NCBI GenBank assembly: GCA_015178975.1 | Contig: WHVD01000008.1 | Coordinates: 248,001-312,000, forward strand | DNA: 64,000 nucleotides | Reading direction: 5' to 3' | Source of the DNA: Hysterangium stoloniferum | Lineage: Eukaryota; Basidiomycota; Agaricomycetes; Hysterangiales; Hysterangiaceae | In this document: in pieces, positions 21,810 through 55,223 of the stretch | Numbering within the stretch: position 1 is the stretch's first letter | How the letters are laid out: the number at the start of each line of letters is the position of its first letter | Position numbers and translations under genes: made by a program | The notes under the pieces: model-generated | What the model was told of the DNA's origin: nothing | What the model saw: the letters and a program-made list of their open reading frames with translations, nothing else | The model's database searches: none

Positions 21810-22565
21810 GTGGTTGATTATAATGTACCATCCCCTGCTTCACCATTCCCACATCTCCCTATTGGTGCACATCAGTCTGATGATCCATTTTTTGTTGCTA
21901 CACAACCACTGTCTACAGGTGGCTCTGCTATAGTTGACTCTGATGCAGTGGCTGCCTTGCAAAGGCAGTATGAAGCTTTGCCACCTTTAAAAAAAACCTA
22001 TTAGTGGGGTCATGCATGAGGAAATGTAGCTGCTCAACTGCAGCGACCAATTTTGCAGTTAGCATCACATCCAGAGCAAAGTGAACCAGCAAATGTATCT
22101 GTTCAGCCACAGGCACCAGGTCATGCATAAGGGAATGTAGCTGCTCAACTGCACCAACCAATTTTGCAGTTAGCACCACATATACAACAGGGTGATCAAC
22201 CAGCAAATGTACCTGTTCAGCCACAGGCACCAGGTCATGCAGAAGGGAATGTAGCTGTTCAACTGCAGCAACCAATTTTGAAGTTAGCACCACATATACA
22301 ACAGGGTCATCAACCAGCAAATGTACCTGTTCAGCCACAGGCACCAGGTCACAAGACAATATAGCTGCTCCATTGCAGTGGCCAATTTTGCAGTTAGCAC
22401 CACATATACAGCAGGATCATCAACCAGCAAATGTACCTGTTAAGCCACAGACACCAGGTCATGCAGAAGGTAATGTAGCTGCTCAACTGCAGCAACCAAT
22501 TTTGCAGTTAGCACCACATATACAGCAGGGTCATCAACCAGTAAATGTATTTGTTCAGTTGTTAT
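21810..22565 (+). pseudogene. Repeat-coding region, five 37-residue units (probable Helitron leader)
   Basis: Five imperfect units of 111-114 bp start near 22019, 22133, 22245, 22356 and 22469. Each codes for a version of PILQLAPHIQQGHQPANVPV plus QPQAPGHAEG, and the unit length is close to a multiple of three. The same motif style (VPILQLAPPQCHHP) precedes the Helitron domain at 37.1-37.2 kb. I therefore infer that this is the N-terminal, low-complexity part of a Helitron protein cut off from its catalytic part. A stop and some length changes break the frame. No other known domain is seen. Confidence 0.45.
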
Positions 22566-22652: not shown

Positions 22653-25573
22653 AGGTCAGCAGTCCAGTAAGCAAACTGGAAATCCCAACCTTATGGGCAA
22701 GCTCAGACCTGATGGCAAACTTACCCCACAGGAAAGGCAGTGGTGTATGGACAACATCCTTTGTCTCTTGTGCAGAAAACCTGGTCATTGAGTTCCAGAA
22801 TGTCCATTGGTGAAAGCAAACTCTGTAAAAAGTCGTACAGCCAAGACTTCCTCCACAGAATCCCCATCAAAGGACAAACTGGCTTCCAACACAAAAAAAG
22901 AGTAAGCAACTCCATGGACTCTGTGTGGGTTGGGAGTTGCATTACCTCTCCATGCATTCATGAGTTTACTCATCTTAACACATCTGCTCTTTAGAACTCT
23001 GACTTGTTTTTTTATTAAACTTATGTCTAATATGATCCCAAAATTCATTTTTTCAGCACTCATAGATTCTGGCTTGACTCATTGTTTTTTAGATACAAAA
23101 TTCATGGAAATAAAGTTATCACCCAAGCTTGCAACATATCCATCCAGTTCCCATGTGGAACATCTCAGTTGGTCACTTTCTATGTGACCCAGTTAGACTC
23201 AAGTTGCTCGGTTGTCCTAGGACATAACTGGCTTACCCAATACAATCCATTGATTGACTGGGTATCAAACAGTATAATTTTCTGGACACCCATGGTACCT
23301 GAAATGGAGAAGTTCACCTCATGGCTTTTCTGTCTCAGACTTTCACCAGACCAGAGCTCAATTATGACATTCATGACAAGGAACTCCTAGCAATTTTTGC
23401 AGCTTTCAAATCATGGCGACACTATTTGGAGGCTCAGGAATTCCAATTGATGTTGTAACAGATCACAAGAACCTGGAATATTTTTCAACTACTAAACTTT
23501 TGACCTGCTGGCAAGCCCAATGGTCCAAATATCTATCAGCATTTAATATGATTATCTGTTTTCGACCTGGCCACCTTGGCAGCAAACCCAATGCTTTGAC
23601 TAGGTGATGGGATGTCTGTCCAAAAGAGGGAGCAACAACTATGCCATGGTAAACCTGCACAACTTGAAACCCATTTTCACAAATCAGCAGCTTACCACAT
23701 CAGTCCACACAACTTTTCTCATCTATCCCATCATCTGTGGAATTATCATTATGGATATTGAGAAACTACATCAAGATGTTCTGTCAGCAATTCTGCTAGA
23801 TCCAATAACTAAAGCATACCTTGACAATCCCATGGACCCTGGTCAACCCCAGTAGTCTCTTGATCAGCATGGTTTCATTAGACTTAACAATCACATATAT
23901 GTACTGGACTCTGATGGCCTCCACCTCAGGATTCTCCAGTACAAACATGACCATCCACTCTTGGGACATTTTGGGTTTAACAAGACTCTATCAATGATAA
24001 GAAGAGAATATACTTGGCCTGGACTCTGAGACTTTTTTAAGCACTATTGTAAATATTGCATTACTTGTCCACACTCTAAATCACAGCATCACAAGCCATG
24101 TGGCCTTTTGAAACAACTCCTGGTACCAGAACACCTGTGGAATTCCATTTCTATGGATTTCATTGAACACCTACCAGACTCTGAAGGCTTTTCTGCCATT
24201 TTAGTCATTGTTGACAGATTCTCAAAACATGGTATTTTCATCCCTACATATGATACCATCACATCTGTGCAGTTAGTGGAACTTTTTATTATTAATGTAT
24301 TTTTCAAGCATGGAGTTCCATCTCATGTAACTTCCAATTGAGGATCAGAGTTTGTATCACTTCTTTAGATCCCTCAGGAAATCCTTGGACATGAAATTAC
24401 ACTTCATGTCTGGACATCACCCAGAAGCTGACAGACAAACCAAACATGTCAATAAAACATTGGAACAATACCTCTGTGTATATTGCAACTATCAACAGGA
24501 CAACTGGAAATCCCTGTTACCACTTGCAGAATTTGCTTACAACAATGCACCCTCAGCCACTACTGGCATTTCCCTGTTCTTTGCAAATAAAGGGTACAAT
24601 CCAAATATTACAGTATACCCAGAATGGAATCTTGCCTCTGCCTGTGCTCAAGAGTTTGTCACAGACCTCCACAAGGAACTCCAGACTGCAAAAAAATCTG
24701 TACAAGAGCAATATCAGCATTCAGTGGACAAAAACCAGATTCTGCCACCCAACTTCAAAATTGGTGATTGTGTTTTTGTCAAAGCCCAATTCTTCCAGAC
24801 TACCCATCCATCAAAGAAACTCACTGAAAAATATTTAGGTTAGTTTGAGTTAATAGCACAAGTAGGTTCAGTTTCATGGACCCTACAGCTTCCAGATAGT
24901 ATGTGCGTGGTACACCTGGTACTGTATTTCATGTTTCTATGCTAGAATTGTGTACTGCTAACACTATCTCAGATCACATGCAATCTCTGCCTCCTCCAGT
25001 CATTATTATGGAGAACCTGAGTTTGAAATCTCACAAATTTTAGACTCAAAAATAGATAAGCATCAATGCACTTGCAAACTGCTTTACTTGGTCAAGTGGG
25101 CAGGTTACAAGGGCACTGATGAAGAGACATCATGGATTTTGGCCATGGAACTCAGTAATGCCACAGAGATCATCACTGACTTTCACACAGCTTTATTTTT
25201 CCCTGTTGCCCTATGTCTCTCTTTGCTTTTACAGGTTTCTGACTTGTTTATTTAAGTCTTAGTGGATCTCCTGTGGACTTTTATGTTTCACATTTTTTTT
25301 TTTTTTTAAAAAAAATTATTAAACTTTATTATTTGTTCATTCAATCTACTTTTATAGGACTATTCTTTTGTCTGACTTCAGTTAACTCTTGTTGGACTTC
25401 TACCAGCTCCCCAGGGACTCTGTCCTCAGAACTCCCAACCTGGGGCTCCAAATACACATACCCACTGTACTCTGCCAAGAGCACCCAGAACTGCCTGCAG
25501 AGTCCCTGGAGCATCTCCACCACAGTCCCCTGAATCCAGTTGCTCTCTTCAAGCAACTGGTTTTGGGCCTCTA

Positions 25574-26389
25574 TGTTACGACTGGAAATTCCACTGGACT
25601 CTGGGCACTAACTTATACGCACCCATGCCCTATACATACCCATTATCAGTTTACTGGAATTCCCGCTGGACTCCGTACATCAGACTTGTCTATGTTCGTC
25701 TTTGTTACGTTGTGTTTCAGTCACTGGAAAACCCACTGGACTCCGTCTCTGTCTATATCTGACCTCATCCCGCACATCAGTCACTGGACCCTGCTCAGAA
25801 AACCCATCACCCCTCTAACAGAGCCCCATTCCCATTTTAGTCAAATGACCTGTCATGATTCGGACTCTGCTTCCACTCCATTTCCTGTTATGGTTTATGA
25901 TTTGTCACTATTCGGACTCCGCTCCATTCCATCCCATTCCTAACACCAAATTTGGTGTTTACTATTCCCGTTTTATGTTTTGCTCGTTTCATTTCATCAT
26001 TACTGGATTTGGTATGACATTCACTCCATGGTTTATTTAAACTGGCAGATGTTGTACATACAATCCAGTCAGAAAATCGGCTTAGATTCCCCCCAGTAAT
26101 CTAATACATTTTCCGCTCTAAACTCCTACTTGAATTACACCACTCACACTAGTTGGAGCCCACGGGCTCCGGCGCATCTATCTCTCTCACCAATCTCGAC
26201 TCACGACCCACGACCTCAGAACTACAACCCCTCAACCCATGACCCCTGCCCAGACTCCCTGGGATTCCTGTCCACCTGTCTGAAATTGGACAACACACTC
26301 TAGCGAGGGTGCAGCCTATAAGCTGAAGCCAAGTCCTACTGGATATCCTGCAGGTTTCTCCAGAAACCCGCCCTGTACATATCCTAACA
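25574..26389 (+). repeat. 5' LTR of Gypsy-2b
   Basis: 816 bp with TG...CA ends. Contains CACCAAATTTGGTGTTT (an inverted repeat) and, near the 3' side, the GGAGCCCACGGGCTCC palindrome seen in all LTRs of this family here. Confidence 0.92.
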
Positions 26390-26775
26390 GTATTTTCTGA
26401 CTAAGACTCGCAGATTGTTTTCAATACGCCACCAAGAAAGAAAGCGAACGCACAGGCATCATTACCTGGACTGTCGACTCTTCATTCCCCATTAACTCTG
26501 TATACCAGCCAGATGCTTGCAAACCAGTCAGAACCCATGGAAGAAGCCCGTATCGAAGAAGTCCCAGAAAACCAGGACGAATCTGTGGCCCCCGACAAGG
26601 GCAAAGGTGTCAAAAATCCTCTGCCTATTGAACGACTGCACTTGGGGGACCCTACTTCTGAATTTTTAGCAGGTACTATAGATAAATGTATGACACACCT
26701 GCTTGAAGAACAAAAGAAAAAGGAACAAGAACCTCCACGGTCAAAAGTCAATGCTCTGGAACCCTTCACGGGTTC

Positions 26776-26943
26776 TGTGAAGAGTCGATAGATTCTGACC
26801 GCTCGATGTATGAAGAATAGTATTTATTCAACTACTATTATTAAGTATTGACCGTCCTGTACAATACTGTAGATTACTAGACTGAAAGTACTAGTAAAGA
26901 GATGCACTACACGTCACAAGAGCAACTGTACAGTTGCTCGTGA
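26776..26943 (+). mobile_element. LTR fragment (same family as the solo LTR at 28436)
   Basis: 168 bp starting TGTGAAGAGTCGATAG, matching the first part of the LTR at 28436-29085 closely. It includes the 20-bp palindrome at 26920-26939. It sits between the Gag start and the protease of Gypsy-2b. Confidence 0.8.
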
Positions 26944-28435
26944 CGATGTCTAATATGATTCCGAAATTCATTTTTTCAGCTTTTATAGATTCTGGCTCGA
27001 CTCATTGTTTTTTAGATACAAAATTCACACAAAAAAATTCTTTGTCAACTTATCCGATAAATCCCATTGGTCTCTGCCTCTTCGATGGCACAAGTAATTC
27101 GGTTGTTACCCAAGCTTGTGATTTACCCATCTGTTTCCCGTGTGGAACATCTCAATTGGTCACTTTCTATGTGACCCAGTTAGACTCAAGTTGTTTGGTG
27201 GTCCTAGGACACAACTGGCTTACCTGCTACAATCTGTTGATTGACTGGATAGCTAACAGTATAACATTCCAGACTCCTGCGGCAGCTGAGGAAACTGTGC
27301 CTGACCCGGCCTCCATGGCACCCATGGCCTTCCCAGCACCTGCAGTCTCAAGGACTCCTGTGATCCCTACGGCACCCATGGCTTCCCTGGAACCCACGGC
27401 ACCTCTGTCTATTTCTCTGATTAATGCTGCAGCTTTTATTAGGGCTTCAAAAATGGATGGGTCCCAGGTGTTCACTATCACCTTAAAAATTGTTGCAGCA
27501 ACTGGACATTTTTCAACCCCGGTATCCGAATCTGAGAAAGCCACTGACCTAGAAGGTGTCCCGGAGAAATATCATGACTTCACAGATGTTTTTAGCAAGC
27601 GAAAAGCTGACCGGCTTCCACCCCACAGAGAATATGACTTAAAAATCGATCTTGAAGACACTAGGACATACATATTTACCTGCTCTCATCCATGGAACTC
27701 TCCGCAATCCGTGATTTCCTGGATGAACATTTGTGCATAGGTTTTATCAGACCCTCAAAGTCTCCTTTTGGAGCACCTGTTCTGTTTGTCAGAAAAAAGG
27801 ATGGATCCCTTCAACTATGTGTTGATTTTAGAGGACTCAATGCTGTCACCAAGAAGGATAAGTATCCACTTCCACTTATATCTGATCTGCTCGATGCTCC
27901 GTGGAATGCCCAGATTTACACCAAATAGATCTCAAACACACCTATCACTTGGTCTGGATCGCTGCAGGCGATGAATGGAAAACCACTTTTAGAACCCGCT
28001 ATGGTGCCTTTGAGTGGTTGGTGATGCCCTTTGGACTCACCAATGCTCCATCTGTTTTTCAGCATTTTATCAACGACATTTTCTCTGACATGCTCAATGT
28101 ATGTGTTATTGTTTACTTGGATGACATTCTTATCTACTCCGAGAAACCCGCAGAACATGACAAACAAGTCTGTGAAGTTCTCCAGAGACTCAGACAACAT
28201 GGTTTATTTGCGAATGGTAAAAAATGTACTTTTGCCACGGACTCCGTGGAATACCTGGGTTTCATGATGGGACCTGACAGACTCCGCATGGATGAAACTA
28301 AAGTGCAAGTCATCAAAGATTGGCCTGAACCCCAAAAAGTCAAAGATATACAATCCTTCCTTGGCTTTGCCAATTTTTACAGACAGTTTATCCACGGATA
28401 TTCCGACATCATGGTACCCCTTACCCATCTTACAT

Positions 28436-29085
28436 TGTGAAGAGTCGATAGATTCTGACCGCTCAATATACGAAGAATAGTGTTTATTCAACTACTATTA
28501 AGGAGTATTGACCGTTCAGTACAATACTATATGTAGATTACTAGACTGATAGTACTAGTATAAGGACGCACTACATGTCACAGGAGCAACTGTACAGTTG
28601 CTCGTGATGACTAGAATTAGAGAATAGAAGAGTTGACCTTTACGGTACAACTTGTAGCTAGAGGTAAAGAGATAATCAGCAAATGACTGAATATCTAGGG
28701 TAAAGAGATAGCAGTGCAAGTCGACTACAGTGTTGACGAGTGCGGAGTTCTGAGAGTGAAACTCAACCTTCGCAGTTCGAGTCCAAATATTATCAGTATG
28801 CAAGAAGACGCTACCTCTATAGGTAGCAGAGATATTACCCTTGACACCTCTCGCTATTCAATGTCTGAGTCATTACGAGGTGGTGTCTGCTGGGTAAAAA
28901 GGTGTCTGAGTTCTAATTGGTGCCGAGTGCACCCACAAGTATACACAATGCTTCGAACTAATGAAATGATGGAATATTCAAAGAATATAACAGATAGATA
29001 AATTTGAATAGAATGTGTAAAATATAAATAAAATAAAAGGAGTGTTTTACCACAATGAAACTGTGGTAAAAGCATACTCCTCACA
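28436..29085 (+). mobile_element. Solo LTR, 650 bp, with 5-bp target duplication
   Basis: Starts TGTGAAGAGTCG and ends ACTCCTCACA, so the ends are TGTGA...TCACA. Flanks are TACAT (28431-28435) and TACAC (29086-29090), a target duplication with one difference. The flanking Gypsy-2b reading is continuous across the site. Contains the palindrome GAGCAACTGTACAGTTGCTC (28584-28603) and, near the 3' end, a long hairpin around GTTTTACCACA...TGTGGTAAAA. Confidence 0.88.
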
Positions 29086-29864
29086 TACACGTAAGGATAC
29101 TCCATGGAATTTTAATGATAAGTGTCAAAAAGCTTTCAATCTTTTAAAAGATTCTTTTTCTTCAGCTCCTATTCTGTCACATTGGAAACCAGACTTCCCG
29201 CTCATCGTTGAAATGGACGCCTCAGATTATGCACTTGGAGCCATTCTGTCTATCCAGGACTCCGACAGAGAAGTCCACCCCATGGCTTTTCTGTCCTGGA
29301 CTTTTACCGGAGCAGAGCTCAACTACGACGTTCATGATAAGGAACTCCTGGCAATCTTTTCAGCTTTCAAAGCATAATGACACTATTTGGAAGGCTTGGG
29401 AACTCCTATTGACATTGTAACAGATCACAAAAACCTGGAATACTTTTCTACCACAAAATGTTTGACCCACTGGCAGGCCCGCTGGTCTGAATATCTATCT
29501 GCCTTCAACATGATTATCCGCTTTCGACCCGGCCATCTCGGCGGCAAACCCGATGCTTTAACTAGACAATGGGACGTCTATCCTAAACAGGGGAGCAATG
29601 ACTATGCCACGGTAAACCTGCACAACCTGAAACCTATTTTCACGAATAAGCAACTTACCGCATCAATCCCATTGTCCGTGGAATTATCATTATGGATATT
29701 GAGAAGTTACATCAAGATATTCTATCAGCAATTCCACTAGACCCGATAACTAAAGCTCACCTTGACAATCCCATGGACCCTGATCAACCTCGGTGGTCTC
29801 TTGATCAGCATGGTTTCATTAGACTTGACGATTGGATCTATGTACCAGACTCCAACGGCCTCCA

Positions 29865-30170
29865 TGTTAGAGTATGATACTACAGCTCTAACATAGTCTA
29901 TTATGATCTCCATATTTTTCTGATATTTGTAGTATTTTTCCCAGCACTGTAGGTGCAGTATTGAGTGAGTTACCTTAGGTCAGTACCTCCTGTATAGGTG
30001 CTTAGATAAGCACCTAGTAGTATAGTCCACTGTGGGTGTGGGAAAGTCTCCTTAGTGTTTACTTTCCAATCACACTCACAGGTATGTCTTTACAGTTGAA
30101 TATACTTAGTGTTTACTTTCCAATCACACTCACAGGGTGTTCTGCAAAGTGTTATTCAACTGTTTCAACA
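29865..30170 (+). mobile_element. Solo LTR, 306 bp, with 5-bp target duplication
   Basis: TGTTAGAGTATG...GTTTCAACA, flanked by CTCCA (29860-29864) and CTCCG (30171-30175). An internal tandem duplication of about 32 bp (CTTAGTGTTTACTTTCCAAT, then CACACTCACAGG) occurs at about 30051-30083 and 30103-30136. It lies inside the integrase region of Gypsy-2b. No other copy of this family is in the window. Confidence 0.85.
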
Positions 30171-31679
30171 CTCCGCCTCAGGACCCTTCAATACAAACAT
30201 CATCATCCACTCTCAGGACATTTCGGGTACAACAAAACTCTATCATTAATAAGAAGAGAATACACTTGGCCCGGACTCCGTGGATTCGTTAAGCACTATT
30301 GCAAATCTTGCACTACTTGTCCCCACTCGAAATCTCAGTGACACAAGCCATACAGCCTTTTGAAACAACTCCCGGTACTGGAATGTCCATGGAATTCTAT
30401 CTCTATGGATTTCATTGAACACCTACTGGATTCCAAAGGCTTTTCCGCCATTCTAGTCATTGTTGACAGATTCTCAAAACAAGGTATATTCATCCCTACT
30501 TATGACACAATTACGTCCATGCAGTTAGTGGAACTTTTTATTATCCACGTATTTTCCAAGCATGGAGTTCTGTCCCACGTGACATCCGATTGAGGATTAG
30601 AGTTCGTATCTCACTTCTTTAGATCCCTCGGGAAATCCTTGGACATGACATTACATTTCACGTCTGGGCATCACCCGGAAGGTGACGGACAAATCAACCA
30701 GACATTGGAACAATCTCTCCGCATATATTGCAACTACCAACAGGACAATTGGAAATCCTTGTTACCACTTGCAGAATTTGCTTACAACAATGCACCTTCG
30801 GCCACTACTGGCATTTCCCCGTTCTTTACAAATAAAGGATATAATCCAAATATTACAGTACATCCAGAACAAAATCTTGCCTCTGCTTGCGCTCAAGAGT
30901 TCACCACGGACCTCCACGAGCTCCACGAGGAACTCCGGACTGCAATACAGTCCACCCAAGAGCAATACCAACATTCAGCAGACAAACACCAGATCCCGCC
31001 ACCAAACTTCAAGATTGGCGATCATGTTTTTGTCAAAGCTCAATTCTTCCAGACTACTTGTCCATCAAAAAAGCTTGCTGAAAAATATTTAGGTCCTTTT
31101 GAAATTATCGCACAAGTAGGTTCAGTCTCTTGGACTCTACGGCTTCTGGATAGCATGTGTGCGGTACACCTGGTATTTCATGTTTCTATGCTAGAACCTT
31201 GTACTGCTAACACTATCCTGGATCACGTGCAATCTCCGCCTCCTCCAGTCATTAATGATGGAGAACCTGAGTTTGAAATCTCACAAATTTTACATTCAAA
31301 AATTGACAAGCGTCGATGCACTTGTAAACTGCTTTACTTGGTCAAGTGGGCGGGATACGAGGGCACCGATGAAGAAACTTCATGGATTTTGGCCATGGAA
31401 CCCGGTAATGCCACGGAAATTGTTACTGACTTTCATACAGCTTACCCCTCAAACCTGGACCACTATCATCTCTCTGACTGCACTCCATGGACCCCGTGTT
31501 ACGTTTGGACTCATTTACATTATTCCCTGTCACCCTATGTCTCTCTTTGCTTTTACAGGTTCTGACATGTTTTTCAAGTCCTTAAGCAGATTTCCCATGG
31601 ACTTTGATTCTTATGTTTTCACGCTTCACTTTTATGTTCAAAAAATTATTAAACTTTTATATTTTCTATTCATCTACAT

Positions 31680-32628
31680 TTATGGGACTGTGTTTTTTCC
31701 CTGCCTCCTCAGCCATCTCCTCAGGGAGCTCCGCGACCTCCGCAGCAACTGCGTCCTCATCTGACTGGCATCCTTGGAACTCCCGACTTGTGGCTCTTCA
31801 TACACATAGCCGCCATACTCTACCAGGAATCTCCAAAACTCCTCACGGAGTCCACACAGTTCCTTTGCCACCACGATATGGACCTTGTTGCTCTTCCAGA
31901 GCAACTCGTTTTGGGCCTCTATGCCCTTGCCGATCCATCCCAAAACCTCGTCCAACCTGGAAAATCCGTCTGACCCGCTAATGTCTCGCGCCCTGGACCC
32001 TGCGGCCTGCTCATGAATTAAAGAACACCTCACTTTGAGGTGCGTGCATTGGTAGCAGCCCGGACCCTGGCTGGACTTTCGATTGCATTCAGTGTTCCGG
32101 TCATTACAACCGAAACACTGCGGGTCATTCTGTGGGGTAGGTGGACTGGTGCCACCTTCCTTGCCTTCTGTTGATATGGTTAGTTCCCTGGTTATCCCAC
32201 TGACCTGAGGCTTACCTTTTGGGGGCTCTCCAGCTCCCCCTCGGACTCTGACTCAACTTCTGTCACCTTGTGCTGAAAATGCCAAGTCAAAAAAAAAAAC
32301 GACAAGTTGAACAGGGACTTACCTTGCCCGCAACTACCACGGCCCTCTCCGCAGCCGCCCAGGCTTTCTCCGTGGCAACCCATACAGCCTCTTCCTCATC
32401 CCTCTTCCTCTTCTCCTCTGCCACTTTTTCCATGGCCAAAGCTGCCTGGTACTCCCTATCCAGGGCCTTCTCGACCTCCCTGGCTTCTTTTTCGGCCTCC
32501 TCCCATTGTCATTGTTGCTCCTCCTGCTGTGCCAAAATTTGGGCAGCAGTGAGTGGCACCCGATAAAGATTGTCCATGGAAGGACCGGTGGTCGGCATTG
32601 CTCTGCGCGGTGTTGGTTTTGGTCCCAT
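31680..32628 (-). pseudogene. Antisense extra gene of Gypsy-2b with zinc-cluster-like motif
   Basis: Runs opposite to gag-pol, between the chromodomain and the 3' LTR. It begins MGPKPTPRRAMPT at 32628. Next come a charged, heptad-like helical stretch (about 32300-32500, runs such as EEAEKEAREVEKAL and EKRKRDEEEA) and an acidic patch (VESESEGELESP). At about 32033-32126 there are six cysteines spaced C-x2-C-x6-C-x9-C-x2-C-x6-C, which is the spacing of fungal Zn(II)2Cys6 DNA-binding clusters. A C-terminal segment follows (LDEVLGWIGKGIEAQ; VEYGGYVYEEPQVGSS). The same gene, same strand and same place occur in the older copy. It may be a captured host gene; its function is unknown. Broken in about three places. 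Confidence 0.65.
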
Positions 32629-32800
32629 TATGTCAAAGATGGGGGTAATAAAGATATATATATAGGCTTGTCGCATTTGAACCTTACTTCCAGATCACAT
32701 GACTCTTTGACACATACATGTAACTGACATGACTTTTGACACATGCGCATAGCTGACAAGAACCTTATCAAGGTCTAGAGCCTCTTTGGGACTTCAGCAT

Positions 32801-32813
32801 AAAGGGAGGGTAC
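32801..32813 (+). other. Polypurine tract of Gypsy-2b
   Basis: AAAGGGAGGGTAC lies directly before the 3' LTR. The matching AAAGGGAGGTAC precedes the 3' LTR of Gypsy-2a at 34371-34382. In LTR elements this tract primes plus-strand DNA synthesis. Confidence 0.8.
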
Positions 32814-33538
32814 TGTTACAACCGGAAATCCCACCAGACTCCAGGCACTAACTTATACGCACCCATGCCCTATATGCACCCATTATCAGTTTACCGAAAT
32901 TCCCGCTGGACTCCATACATCAGACTTGTCTATGTTCATCTTCATTACGTTGTGTTTCAGTCACTGGAAAACCCACTGGACTCCGTCTCTGTCTATATCC
33001 GACCTTGTCCCACGCGTCAGTCACTGGACCCCACTCAGAAAACCCGTCACCCCTCTAACAAAGCCCCATTCCCATTTTAGTCAAATGACCTGTCACAATT
33101 CGGACTCCTCTTCCACTCTGTTTCCCATTATGGTTTATGATTTGTCACTATTTGGACTCCACTCTGTTCTGTCCTGTTCCTAACACCAAATGTGGTGTTT
33201 ACTATTCCCATTTTATGTTTTGCTCATTTCATTAGATTCCCCCCAGTAATCTAATACATTTTCCACTCTAAACTCCTACTTGAATTACACCGCTCACACT
33301 AGTTGGAGCCCACGGGCTCCAGCACATCTATCTCTCTCACCAATCTCAACTCATGACCCATGACCTCTGACTACAACCCCTCGACCCACGACCCCTGCCT
33401 GGACTCCCCGGGATTCCCATCTGCCTGTCTGAAATTGGACAACACGATCTAGCGAGGGTGCAGCCTATAAGCTGAAGCCAAGTCCTACCAGATATCCCAC
33501 GGGTTTCTCCAGAAACCTGCCCTGTAGGTATCCTAACA
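32814..33538 (+). repeat. 3' LTR of Gypsy-2b
   Basis: 725 bp, TGTTACAACCGG...ATCCTAACA, shorter than its 5' partner. Followed by the CTCTA target repeat. Confidence 0.92.
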
Positions 33539-33543
33539 CTCTA

Positions 33544-34174
33544 TGCCTGCAGCTATCTGCCCTAAAATATCCTCCAGGCCCAAGGGCCTGTCCAAGCAAC
33601 CCATTTCCCATGCCACAGATCCTGTGGGCTCATGAACCAGTGAGAACCTCACTTTGAGGTGCACACAGGGCCAACAGCCTGGTCCCTGCCTAGACTTTTG
33701 GTAACATTCTGTGTTCTGGTCATTACAGCTGGAACACCATGGTTGTTCTTTGCCTCCAGGCAGACTGGAGCTGTTTTCCTTGTTTTCTGTTAGTGTGGTC
33801 AGTACCTGGAAACCTCCACAGACCCGAGACTTGCATTTTGGGGGCTCTCGGGCTCCCCCTCAGACTTGGACTCAGCTTCCACCACTTTGTGCTAAAAAAG
33901 AAAACTGCCTTGGCATGTTCCATGGCAACCTGTGCTGCCTCCTCATCCCTCTTTCTCTGCTCCTCAGCCTCCTTCTCCATGGTCAGTGCCACCTGTACTC
34001 CCTCTCCAAGTCCTCCTTGGCCTCTTTGGCTTTCTTCTCTGCTTCCTCCCTTTGTCGATGCTGCTCCTCCCACTGCACCAAGATTTGGGAAGCAGTGAGC
34101 AGAGCCCAATATAGGGAGCCCATGGAGGGCCTGGCACTGGGGATTGGCCTGCAAGGCATCAGTTTTGGACCCAT
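33544..34174 (-). pseudogene. Antisense extra gene of Gypsy-2a, N-terminal half
   Basis: Starts MGPKLMPCRPIPSARPSM at 34174 on the minus strand and parallels the antisense gene of Gypsy-2b along its length. It shares the helical stretch EEAEKKAKEAKEDLERE and the cysteine region near 33640-33735, now diverged. Its C-terminal half lies at 25341-25573 (minus; AEYSGYVYLEPQVGSS), displaced by the Gypsy-2b insertion. Finding the gene in both copies shows it belongs to the family and was not picked up once by chance. Confidence 0.65.
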
Positions 34175-34382: not shown

Positions 34383-34866
34383 TGTTATAATCAGAAGATC
34401 CACCAGACTCCAGCTACTACCATATATGCACCCACACCCTATATGCACCAGTTATCAGTTAACTGGAATACCTGCCAAGACCAGACATCAAACCTGTCCA
34501 TGCCTGACCCTCTGTGTCTTGTGCATCAGTCACCAGACTGCTGGGTCCCACACACATCAAAGCCTGTCTATGTCCGACCCTGTTCCACACCAGTCACTGG
34601 GCTCCACCCAGAGAACCTGACAGCTCTCTAACTGAGCCCCATTCCCATTATGGTCTAATGACCTGTCATGTTTTGGACTCCGCCTCTGTTCTGTTCTATG
34701 ACTAACACCTAATTTGGTGTTTACTTATCTCATTTCATGATCACTTGTTTGGATCTCATTATTACTGGATTTAGTATAAATACATTCCACAGTCTATATA
34801 GTCTGGCAGATGTTGTACATACAATCCAGTCAGAAAATCAGCTTAGATCTTCCCAATAATCTCAGT
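34383..34866 (+). repeat. 3' LTR of Gypsy-2a, incomplete
   Basis: Starts TGTTATAATCAG after a purine tract and follows the Gypsy-2 LTR up to CCCAATAATCTCAGTACA. The last third of the LTR is absent. Confidence 0.8.
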
Positions 34867-52860: not shown

Positions 52861-52938
52861 TGGAGAGCTTGGTAATAGCAGAGTGTACATTTGATTATCA
52901 GTATTAAATATAACATGATGGCCCCAGAAATGGGGACC

Positions 52939-53730
52939 TGTTACAACCGGAATTCCCGCCGGACTCCAGGCACTAACTTATATGCACCTGTGCCCTATAC
53001 GCACCCATTGTCAGTTTACCAGAATTCCTGCCAGACTCCATATGTCAGACTTATCTACATTTGACTTCGTTATGTTGTGTATCAGTCACCGGAATACCCA
53101 CCAGACTCCGTCCCTGTCTATGTTCGACCTCATCCCACACATCAGTCACCAGACCCCACTCGTAAAACCCATCATCCCTCTAACAGAGCCCCATTCCCGG
53201 TTTAGTCAAATGACCTGTCACAATTGGGACTCCACTCCCACTCCATTTCCCATTATGGTTCATGATTTGTCACAATTTGGACTCCACTCCGTTCCATCCC
53301 GTTCCTAACACCAAATTTGGTGTTTACTATTCCTGTTTCATGTTTTGCTAGTTTCATTTCATTATTACTGAATTTGGTATGTCATTCATTCCACGGTCTA
53401 TTTAGTCTGGCAGATGTTGTACATACAATCCAGTTAGAAAATTGGCTTAGATTCCCCCCAGTAATCTAATACATTTTCCGCTCTAAACCCCTACTTGAAT
53501 CACACCGCTCATGCTAGTTGGAGCCCACGGGCTCTGGCACATCTATCTCTCTTACCTATCTCGACCTACATCTCGACTCACAACCTCTCAACCCACGACC
53601 TCTGACCTATGACCCCTCGACCATGAACCCTGCCCGGACTCCCGGGATTCCCGTCCGCCTGTCTGAAATTGGACAACACAATCTCACAAGGGTGCAGCCT
53701 ATACGCTGAAGCCAAGTCCTACCGGATATT
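52939..53730 (+). mobile_element. Gypsy-2 family LTR, plus orientation
   Basis: Starts TGTTACAACCGGAATTCCCG and follows the Gypsy-2b LTR to ACCGGATATT, then gives way to an inverted LTR copy. Keeps some CpG. Confidence 0.88.
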
Positions 53731-54738
53731 GGGTTGAGAGATCTTGAGTCGAGACGTAGGTCATGAGTCGAGACGTAGGTCATGAGTCGAGATGTAGGTC
53801 GTGAGTCGAGACATAGGTCGTGAGTCGAGACGTAGGTCGTGAGTCGAGACGTAGGTCGTGAGTCGAGACGTAGGTCGTGAGTTGAGACGTAGGTCGCGAG
53901 TCGAGACGTAGGTCACGAGTCGAGACGTAGGTCACGAGTCGAGACGTAGGTCACGAGTCGAGACGTAGGTCACGAGTCGAGACGTAGGTCACGAGTCGAG
54001 ACGTAGGTCACGAGTCGAGACGTAGGTCGCGAGTCGAGACGTAGGTCACGAGTCGAGACGTAGGTCACGAGTCGAGACGTAGGTCGCGAGTCGAGACGTA
54101 GGTCGCGAGTCGAGACGTAGGTCGCGAGTCGAGACGTAGGTCGCGAGTCGAGACGTAGGTCGCGAGTCGAGACGTAGGTCGCGAGTCGAGACGTAGGTCG
54201 CGAGTCGAGATGTAGGTCGCGAGTCGAGATGTAGGTCGCGAGTCGAGACGTAGGTCGCGAGTCGAGACGTAGGTCGCAAGTCGAGACGTAGGTCGCAAGT
54301 CGAGACGTAGGTCGCAAGTCGAGATGTAGGTTGAGATAGGTAAGAGAGATAGATGTGCTGGAGCCCGTGGGCTCCGACTAGTGTGAGCGGTGTGATTCAA
54401 GCAGGGGTTTAGAGCGGAAAATGTATTAGATTACTGGGGGGAATCTAAGCCAATTTCCTGACTGGATTGTAAGTACAACATCTGCCAGACTAAATAGACC
54501 GTGGAATGAATGACATACCAAATCCAGTAATAATGAAATGAAACTAGCAAAACATGAAATGGGAATAGTAAACACCAAATTTGGTGTTAGGAACGGGATG
54601 GAATGGAGTGGAGTCTGAATTGTGACAAATCATAAACCATAATGGGAAATGGAGTGGGAGCGGAGTCTGAATTGTGACAGGTCATTTGACTAAACTGGGA
54701 ATGGGGCTCTGTTAGAGGGATGACGGGTTTTACGAGAT
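53731..54738 (-). mobile_element. Gypsy-2 family LTR, inverted, with expanded minisatellite inside
   Basis: From GGGTTGAGAG (53731) and again from 54328 to 54738 the sequence is the reverse complement of the Gypsy-2 LTR. It includes GGAGCCCGTGGGCTCC and CACCAAATTTGGTG. The 19-bp array lies exactly where the LTR has two such words. Confidence 0.85.
53744..54327. repeat. 19-bp minisatellite, about 31 copies
   Basis: Unit GAGTCGAGACGTAGGTCAC with a few variants (GTCATG, GTCGTG, GTCACG, GTCGCG, GTCGCA) that occur in blocks, a sign of stepwise local duplication. The LTR copies elsewhere contain the seed twice (CTCGACCTACATCTCGACTC), so the array grew from the LTR itself. Because 19 is not a multiple of three, each minus-strand frame reads the same 19-residue cycle (DLRLDSRPTSRLATYVSTR) without stops. 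This is not a gene. Confidence 0.95.
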
Positions 54739-55223
54739 CAGACTCCGCTTCATTCCGTCCCATTCCTAACACCAAATTTGGTGTTTACTATTCTCGTTTT
54801 ATGTTTTGCTAGTTTCATTTCATTATTACTGGATTTGGTATGTCATTCATTCCATGGTCTATTTAGTCTGGCAGATGTTGTACATACAATCCAGTCAGAA
54901 AATCGGCTTAGATTCTTCCCAGTAATCTAATACATTTTCCGCTCTAAACTCCTACTTGAATTACACCACTCACGCTAGTCGGAGCCCACAGGCTCCAGCG
55001 CATCTATCTCTCTTATTCATCTCGACTCATGACCTCTCAACCCACAACCTCCGACCTACAACCCCTCGACCCATGAACCCCACCCGGACTCCCCGGGATT
55101 CCCATCTGCCTGTCTGAAATTGGACAACACAATCTCACGAGGGCGCAGCCTATAAGCTGAAGCCAAGTCCTACCAGATATTCTGTGGGTTTCTCTGGAAA
55201 CCCACCATGTACGTACCCTAACA
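54739..55223 (+). mobile_element. Gypsy-2 family LTR, plus orientation, 3' part
   Basis: Resumes the LTR in the plus sense from CAGACTCCGCTTCATTCC and runs to the end GTACGTACCCTAACA. With 52939-53730 and the inverted middle it forms a plus/minus/plus cluster. Confidence 0.85.

Follow-up and report, generated by a model that had tools for sequence, protein, structure and literature searches.

An intron-containing antisense gene with a zinc-cluster-like block in a Ty3/Gypsy family of Hysterangium stoloniferum

A Ty3/Gypsy retrotransposon family of Hysterangium stoloniferum, a basidiomycete described as ectomycorrhizal (PMC7550596), carries as a regular part a gene on the strand opposite to gag-pol, and this antisense gene is under purifying selection. 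The family, here called Gypsy-2, was met in a window of 64,000 nucleotides (assembly GCA_015178975.1, contig WHVD01000008.1, positions 248,001 to 312,000 of the forward strand; all coordinates given here are those of the window), in which a younger element (25574-33538) holds a decayed copy of the gene on the minus strand (31667..32628), tail to tail with pol and between pol and the 3' long terminal repeat (LTR). Further natural copies were searched for in the 111-Mb assembly of the window's own host. The predicted gene has two introns, encodes about 294 amino acids and is intact in young copies. We consider it an element-encoded accessory gene whose protein might enter the nucleus, bind the element's own DNA and tune its transcription, a reading to which we give a probability of roughly 0.55.

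Structure, conservation and selection of the antisense gene

The original prediction had described a coding-like region on the minus strand with an MGPK start, a charged helical part, an acidic part, a cysteine block and the C-terminal segment VYxEPQVGSS. All of these parts were found on that strand and the region does behave as a coding gene; it is not a single open reading frame (ORF), however, since an alignment of 30 natural copies revealed three exons separated by two short introns. In the window copy, exon 1 (32323..32628, minus strand as for all following parts of the gene) begins with MGPK, encodes the charged helical region and contains an in-frame TGA. It is followed by intron 1 (32273..32322, 50 nt, GTAAGT...TTTCAG), by exon 2 (32216..32272) with 19 codons for an acidic and a basic, nuclear-signal-like stretch, and by intron 2 (32168..32215, 48 nt, GTAAGC...CTAACCATATCAACAG). 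Exon 3 (31667..32167), with two frameshifting deletions in the window copy, encodes the zinc-cluster-like block, a helical region and VYxEPQVGSS; the six cysteines, spaced C-x2-C-x6-C-x9-C-x2-C-x6-C, lie at 32025..32117. Sixty loci examined across the genome correspond to 56 distinct ones, as the pairs L003/L038, L005/L043, L013/L053 and L019/L031 each represent the same place. Intron 1 was bounded by GT and AG in 50 of the 56 distinct loci and intron 2 in all 56, all of which also contained a branch-like CTRAC. Gaps per kb among the 30 copies amounted to 4.0, 2.3 and 2.8 for exons 1, 2 and 3 versus 32.8 and 11.9 for introns 1 and 2, and base differences in the introns were not above those in the exons.

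The gene or a remnant of it was found wherever the family was scored. Exon-3 protein matches were scored at a minimum of 150 sites in the genome (at least 150 of 1347 first-look candidates), and two genome lists combined gave at least 173 distinct places. Starting from pol, all 40 scored pol ends (of 1603 first-look candidates) had the gene or a remnant of it: 24 showed a listed exon-3 match at a distance of 120-132 nt, tail to tail, and the remaining 16 all contained exon-3 sequence, partly as fragments. Starting from the gene, 57 of 60 loci (53 of 56 distinct ones) had pol tail to tail in the flank, and the same numbers, 57/60 and 53/56, had an upstream LTR match in either orientation. No gene copy clearly free of the element was found among the 60 loci examined; locus L041 had neither a pol nor an LTR neighbour, but it also lacked exon 1. 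The claim that the family has kept this gene is thus borne out by the scored pol ends as well as by the gene loci.

Coding constraint was assessed for exon 3 by codon-position counts in columns without CpG contact, using 43 distinct loci (of 88, chosen as 44 rows in which L013 and L053 are one place), for exons 1 and 2 in 24 of 31 rows, and by the ratio of nonsynonymous to synonymous substitution rates (dN/dS, Nei-Gojobori) in 16 chosen loci of the 44 rows. In exon 3, variable columns at codon positions 1, 2 and 3 numbered 33/119, 18/128 and 73/109, with heterozygosities of 0.087, 0.043 and 0.269. The same codon phasing was seen in exon 1 (0.091, 0.085 and 0.277) and exon 2 (0.065, 0.017 and 0.207). 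In the frame of the gene dN/dS was 0.20, and 0.09 after removal of CpG codons; the other two minus-strand frames gave 1.1-2.2, so that the constraint on the minus-strand frame, for which a dN/dS check had been proposed, was confirmed. In ten loci the gene and the C-terminus of pol gave similar values (0.10 vs 0.13). The cysteine block is conserved among copies as anticipated, with the six cysteines retained in order in 44, 44, 43, 44, 43 and 44 of the 44 rows. Copies lacking the region, a minus strand without constraint or an unconserved cysteine block, any of which would have spoken against the original prediction, did not appear in the material examined. Coding on the sense strand was also considered and rejected: without CpG codons the three sense frames gave dN/dS of 1.17, 0.22 and 4.29, of which the first belongs to a frame free of stops in 7 of 43 loci and the second to a frame with stops in 43 of 43.

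Full-length reading after removal of the introns was possible in 18 natural copies, with proteins of 285-294 amino acids. Copies that were full-length and also had canonical splice sites made up none of the 30 rows of the first alignment, three of 31 in the second (L035, L059 and L060) and 15 of 28 in the third set; copy L019 has an open frame, yet its first donor reads TT. Nine full-length copies (L077-L085) lie within 0-7 nt of L077 over 990 columns and are therefore considered recent.

The young copy L077 combines an intact gene with an LTR rich in CpG. Old copies, judged by eye and without counting in the alignment of L001-L030, differ mostly by changes from CpG to TpG/CpA, which seem to have created many of their stops, and this pattern of decay indicates that the host probably methylates CpG in the Gypsy-2 family.

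Diversity was also unevenly distributed along the element. Synonymous divergence (dS) was about 0.8 in exon 3 and 0.13-0.24 in the adjoining C-terminus of pol (the same ten loci, of 14), and non-CpG heterozygosity in loci L001-L060 was low at the pol end (~31190-31590), at 0.065-0.10 compared to 0.18-0.23 deeper in pol. Recombination or an overlapping function could be behind this low diversity. A mosaic origin of the gene was tried as an explanation and rejected, as a sliding profile over 49 of the 56 loci dipped locally near the end of pol and showed no jump confined to the gene; a separate history of the gene is therefore not claimed.

The zinc-cluster-like module and a possible role in regulation

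Several features suggest a nuclear accessory protein that likely binds DNA and acts on the element. The spacing of its six cysteines is identical to that of yeast Leu3, and a profile of 25 natural exon-3 sequences aligned with the DNA-binding domain of Leu3 in such a way that each of the six cysteines fell on its counterpart, at a weak E value of 0.33. Zn_clus (PF00172) was the sole fungal regulator match in Pfam (E 0.28 for one whole natural protein) and was found in 20 of the 25 exon-3 sequences at E ≤ 5 (best 0.0028). Basic residues lie in the second half of the module, contrary to the order expected of PF00172, in which the basic half comes first. When the two halves were exchanged the Zn_clus score rose in six of six modules (e.g. 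from 15.0 to 20.7 and from 18.7 to 24.1 bits), one of them passing the family cut-off of 21 bits, and Leu3 treated in the same way fell from 39.2 to 28; the exchange also shortens the middle loop, and Leu3 was the only control. One of the six modules gave a match along its length without the exchange as well (16.1 bits). We read this as a putative zinc cluster with the basic, recognition-type half in second place, probably followed by a helical region. The zinc-cluster likeness described in the original prediction thus stands as far as the Leu3-like spacing and the conservation of the cysteines are concerned, but the module misses the Pfam cut-off and its halves look swapped.

The gene also appears to have a conserved, putative TATA-type promoter. 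TATAWA was present within positions -150 to -1 of the ATG in 47 of the 50 distinct upstream stretches that extended over 150 nt or more, in 46 of these at -56 to -61, as compared to a mean of 11.9 and a maximum of 20 in 200 base shuffles. In the window copy the TATA-like box (32653..32666, minus strand) lies at -36. An alignment of 22 copies showed the last 160 nt before the ATG to be largely conserved. Upstream of the box, two 24-nt repeat units were found in copy L077 (-155 and -126), both visible in most other rows; their counterparts in the window, read from the sequence, lie at 32706..32758 (minus strand) and form a candidate operator. A second candidate target is located in the LTR. The young LTR contains GGACTCC five times (0.10 expected; reached in none of 1000 shuffles), in three cases in the form of the palindrome CGGACTCCG, which has CGG half-sites, and the two LTRs in the window have five and three GGACTCC. 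We consider CGGACTCCG a candidate site and a lead to the protein's target.

Taken together, these features would fit the following course of events. RNA polymerase II would start at the internal antisense promoter and both introns would be spliced out of the antisense transcript. The resulting protein, with its basic nuclear-signal-like stretch, six-cysteine zinc cluster and a helical region perhaps used for dimerisation, would enter the nucleus and bind to the element's own DNA, most likely at CGG-type LTR sites (the repeated CGGACTCCG) and/or at the repeats in its own promoter, by which transcription of new and old copies would be tuned in trans. The introns could outlast retrotransposition since the genomic RNA represents the opposite strand, on which they do not show as introns. 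Self-regulation of the element would be the likeliest, though unproven, role. A more specific version, in which a reversed-half zinc-cluster regulator from an antisense-spliced transcript recognises both CGGACTCCG and the promoter repeats of its own gene and so forms a feedback or anti-silencing circuit copied along with the element, is speculative and, in this full form, doubtful.

A number of results weigh against self-regulation by a zinc-cluster protein. The match to Leu3 lacks significance and is outranked by two talin chains, and in natural order Zn_clus reached 10.0-18.7 bits, below the cut-off of 21, which is why we use the term zinc-cluster-like. The lysine of the first half, which we take to be typical of Gal4-type clusters, is absent from the module. 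An AlphaFold model of exon 3 from 25 natural sequences had a mean predicted local distance difference test score of 41.5 and was unusable, so that it yielded no fold search. The GGACTCC sites rank at the 47th-78th percentile of LTR 7-mers for conservation in 47 loci and so do not clearly stand out from the LTR around them, which makes the choice of target a guess. With respect to the gene itself, gap lengths in the 30 copies were divisible by three in 36% of cases in exon 3 and 34% in intron 1; this lack of frame-keeping is expected, because these copies are decayed, and lends no support to the gene.

The same protein might act on chromatin rather than as a regulator proper. VANC is known as the anti-silencing factor of VANDAL elements, and the Gypsy-2 protein could likewise bind element DNA and counter host CpG methylation and heterochromatin. 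The probable methylation of the family, to which the CpG decay seen by eye in old copies points, the intact gene beside a CpG-rich LTR in L077 and the CpG within the LTR motif CGGACTCCG would all agree with such a role. The sequence contains no specific chromatin pointer, however, neither Pfam nor the protein searches turned up a relative whose function is known, and we regard an anti-silencing factor as rather unlikely. A part in the retrotransposition machinery, i.e. in nuclear import, in integration targeting or as a partner of integrase, would draw on the nuclear-signal-like stretch together with the zinc cluster and on the constant place of the gene beside the integrase C-terminus, and some plant antisense proteins are described as nuclear with a suggested role in retrotransposition (PMC7264820). 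The gene is separately encoded on the opposite strand, though, its DNA-recognition-type module suits transcription better, and pol already has a chromodomain-like stretch, albeit below cut-off; a machinery role instead of a transcriptional one is therefore unlikely in our view.

It is also conceivable that the product is the antisense RNA, which would pair with the genomic RNA and limit copy number via RNA interference. The conserved antisense promoter sequence would yield such an RNA, and the idea has been discussed for plant elements (PMC7264820). RNA pairing, however, needs neither the protein-level selection seen in three exons nor conserved cysteines and splice sites, and we consider this explanation very improbable; as a sole function it is largely refuted by the codon-phased constraint, and an additional role may exist. 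As to a chance antisense ORF, carried along as a functionless passenger, the sense frame open in 7 of 43 loci illustrates how little an open frame by itself tells in this region. This sense frame has a dN/dS of 1.17 as opposed to 0.09-0.20 in the frame of the gene, and the codon-phased constraint, the conserved introns and the conserved promoter led us to reject the chance ORF, the probability of which is negligible. Self-regulation by a DNA-binding protein remains the reading that we prefer.

Origin and similarity to known antisense genes

The original prediction held that the family had captured a regulator gene of its host, a proposal that found no backing. Protein searches, which need shared 5-residue words, gave no host paralogue and no outside homologue and matched only two H. 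stoloniferum gene models, apparently fragments of the same antisense gene; a scan of viral contigs gave no relatives. Transposon proteins are often omitted from gene sets. The absence of homologues is weak evidence because of these omissions and the dependence on 5-residue words, and because the host's own genome was the only fungal genome searched and metagenome contigs were unscanned. A captured host gene is, without a host homologue, unproven.

Antisense genes have been described from other LTR elements. One close case, by description, is Boty, a Gypsy element of Botrytis cinerea with gag-pol, a chromodomain and brtn as its antisense gene (Zhao et al. 2011, as cited in PMC7264820, PMC8365987, PMC4227169 and PMC5987419). 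In both cases a fungal LTR element carries an extra gene in antisense orientation, placed between pol and the 3' LTR; the host of Boty is an ascomycete and that of Gypsy-2 a basidiomycete, and the passages cited describe no introns, zinc cluster or promoter for brtn. Similar genes, named aORFs-3R, are known from plants, namely gene23 of maize Grande, rice RIRE2 and TRP28 of Silene Retand (PMC7264820, PMC11963269). A promoter of its own and a nuclear product are described for gene23, and DNA binding is predicted for TRP28 (PMC7264820, PMC11963269). These differ, again by description, in that they reside in plant elements, that Retand is no chromovirus and that no zinc cluster is named in these passages. 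In comparison with the Zn(II)2Cys6 class (PF00172; Gal4, Leu3), the H. stoloniferum module has the six-cysteine spacing of Leu3 and probably a helical region after it, but stays below the family cut-off and has its basic residues in the second half. A further parallel is HBZ of human T-cell leukaemia virus (HTLV), a spliced antisense regulatory gene whose transcription begins at the 3' end of a retroelement. HBZ is a basic leucine zipper protein of an animal retrovirus with its promoter in the 3' LTR, and no sequence relation is claimed.

According to a 2020 review, a clear similarity of antisense accessory genes of LTR retrotransposons to other proteins had until then not been described (PMC7264820). 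A literature search by titles and the beginnings of abstracts recognised no antisense accessory gene that was from a basidiomycete or of zinc-cluster type, and a word search in the main text of a 2011 survey of fungal LTR elements found neither "antisense" nor "zinc" (PMC3248453). The antisense-gene architecture as such is already known; its spliced zinc-cluster version in a basidiomycete seems to be new. Such accessory genes have been known for years with their function unknown, and the H. stoloniferum case offers a recognisable DNA-binding-type module and two introns that mark its strand. The conserved promoter sequence, the candidate targets and the young intact copies make the guess of regulation directly testable with one protein and an LTR reporter. 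A mobile element may thus carry its own switch gene, and a zinc cluster with swapped halves, if true, would widen this fungal DNA-binding class.

The younger element, nested in an older relative

The family is probably of the Ty3/Gypsy chromovirus type. The younger element has two LTRs, a 5' LTR at 25574..26389 and a 3' LTR with five GGACTCC motifs at 32814..33538 (both plus strand), and a target site duplication of 5 bp (CTCTA, plus strand) at 25569..25573 and 33539..33543. The gag-pol region (26405..31565, plus strand) covers protease, reverse transcriptase, ribonuclease H, integrase zinc-binding, SH3-like and chromodomain-like parts, gag being assigned by position only. RVP_2, RVT_1, RT_RNaseH_2 and Integrase_H2C2 were found above the Pfam cut-off in Gypsy order, as was the SH3-like domain, and the chromodomain (PF00385) at the integrase C-terminus reached 20.4 bits against a cut-off of 25.1 in this decayed copy. 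A purine-rich tract, read from the sequence, adjoins the 3' LTR (32801..32813, plus strand).

The original prediction counted two copies of the gene in the window. The one in the younger element was confirmed, but the second region (33539..34174, minus strand) is the N-terminal half of a split older gene and no independent complete copy. It stops at the LTR boundary with ...AAGIE, and its frame continues beyond the younger element with EAQNQLLEES...VYLEPQVGSSED...SPIKVD at 25573-25341, the C-terminal part (25341..25573, minus strand) carrying VYLEPQVGSS. Because the frame resumes across 25574-33538, an older relative's antisense gene must have been the insertion site of the younger element. 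In the piece at 33539-34174 the last cysteine of the six-cysteine block is replaced by phenylalanine. The 3' LTR of the older element was located by a partial match at 34383..34862 (plus strand).

Some further repeats were observed in the window. A direct repeat of 175 nt (88% identical; 26776-26946 and 28436-28610) in the internal region of the younger element may mark the two ends of a small insertion. Several more LTR pieces of the Gypsy-2 family lie at 52938-55223 in both orientations and are apparently nested or solo LTRs, and a tandem array with units of ~114 nt at 22008-22558 presumably belongs to the gag region of the older element.
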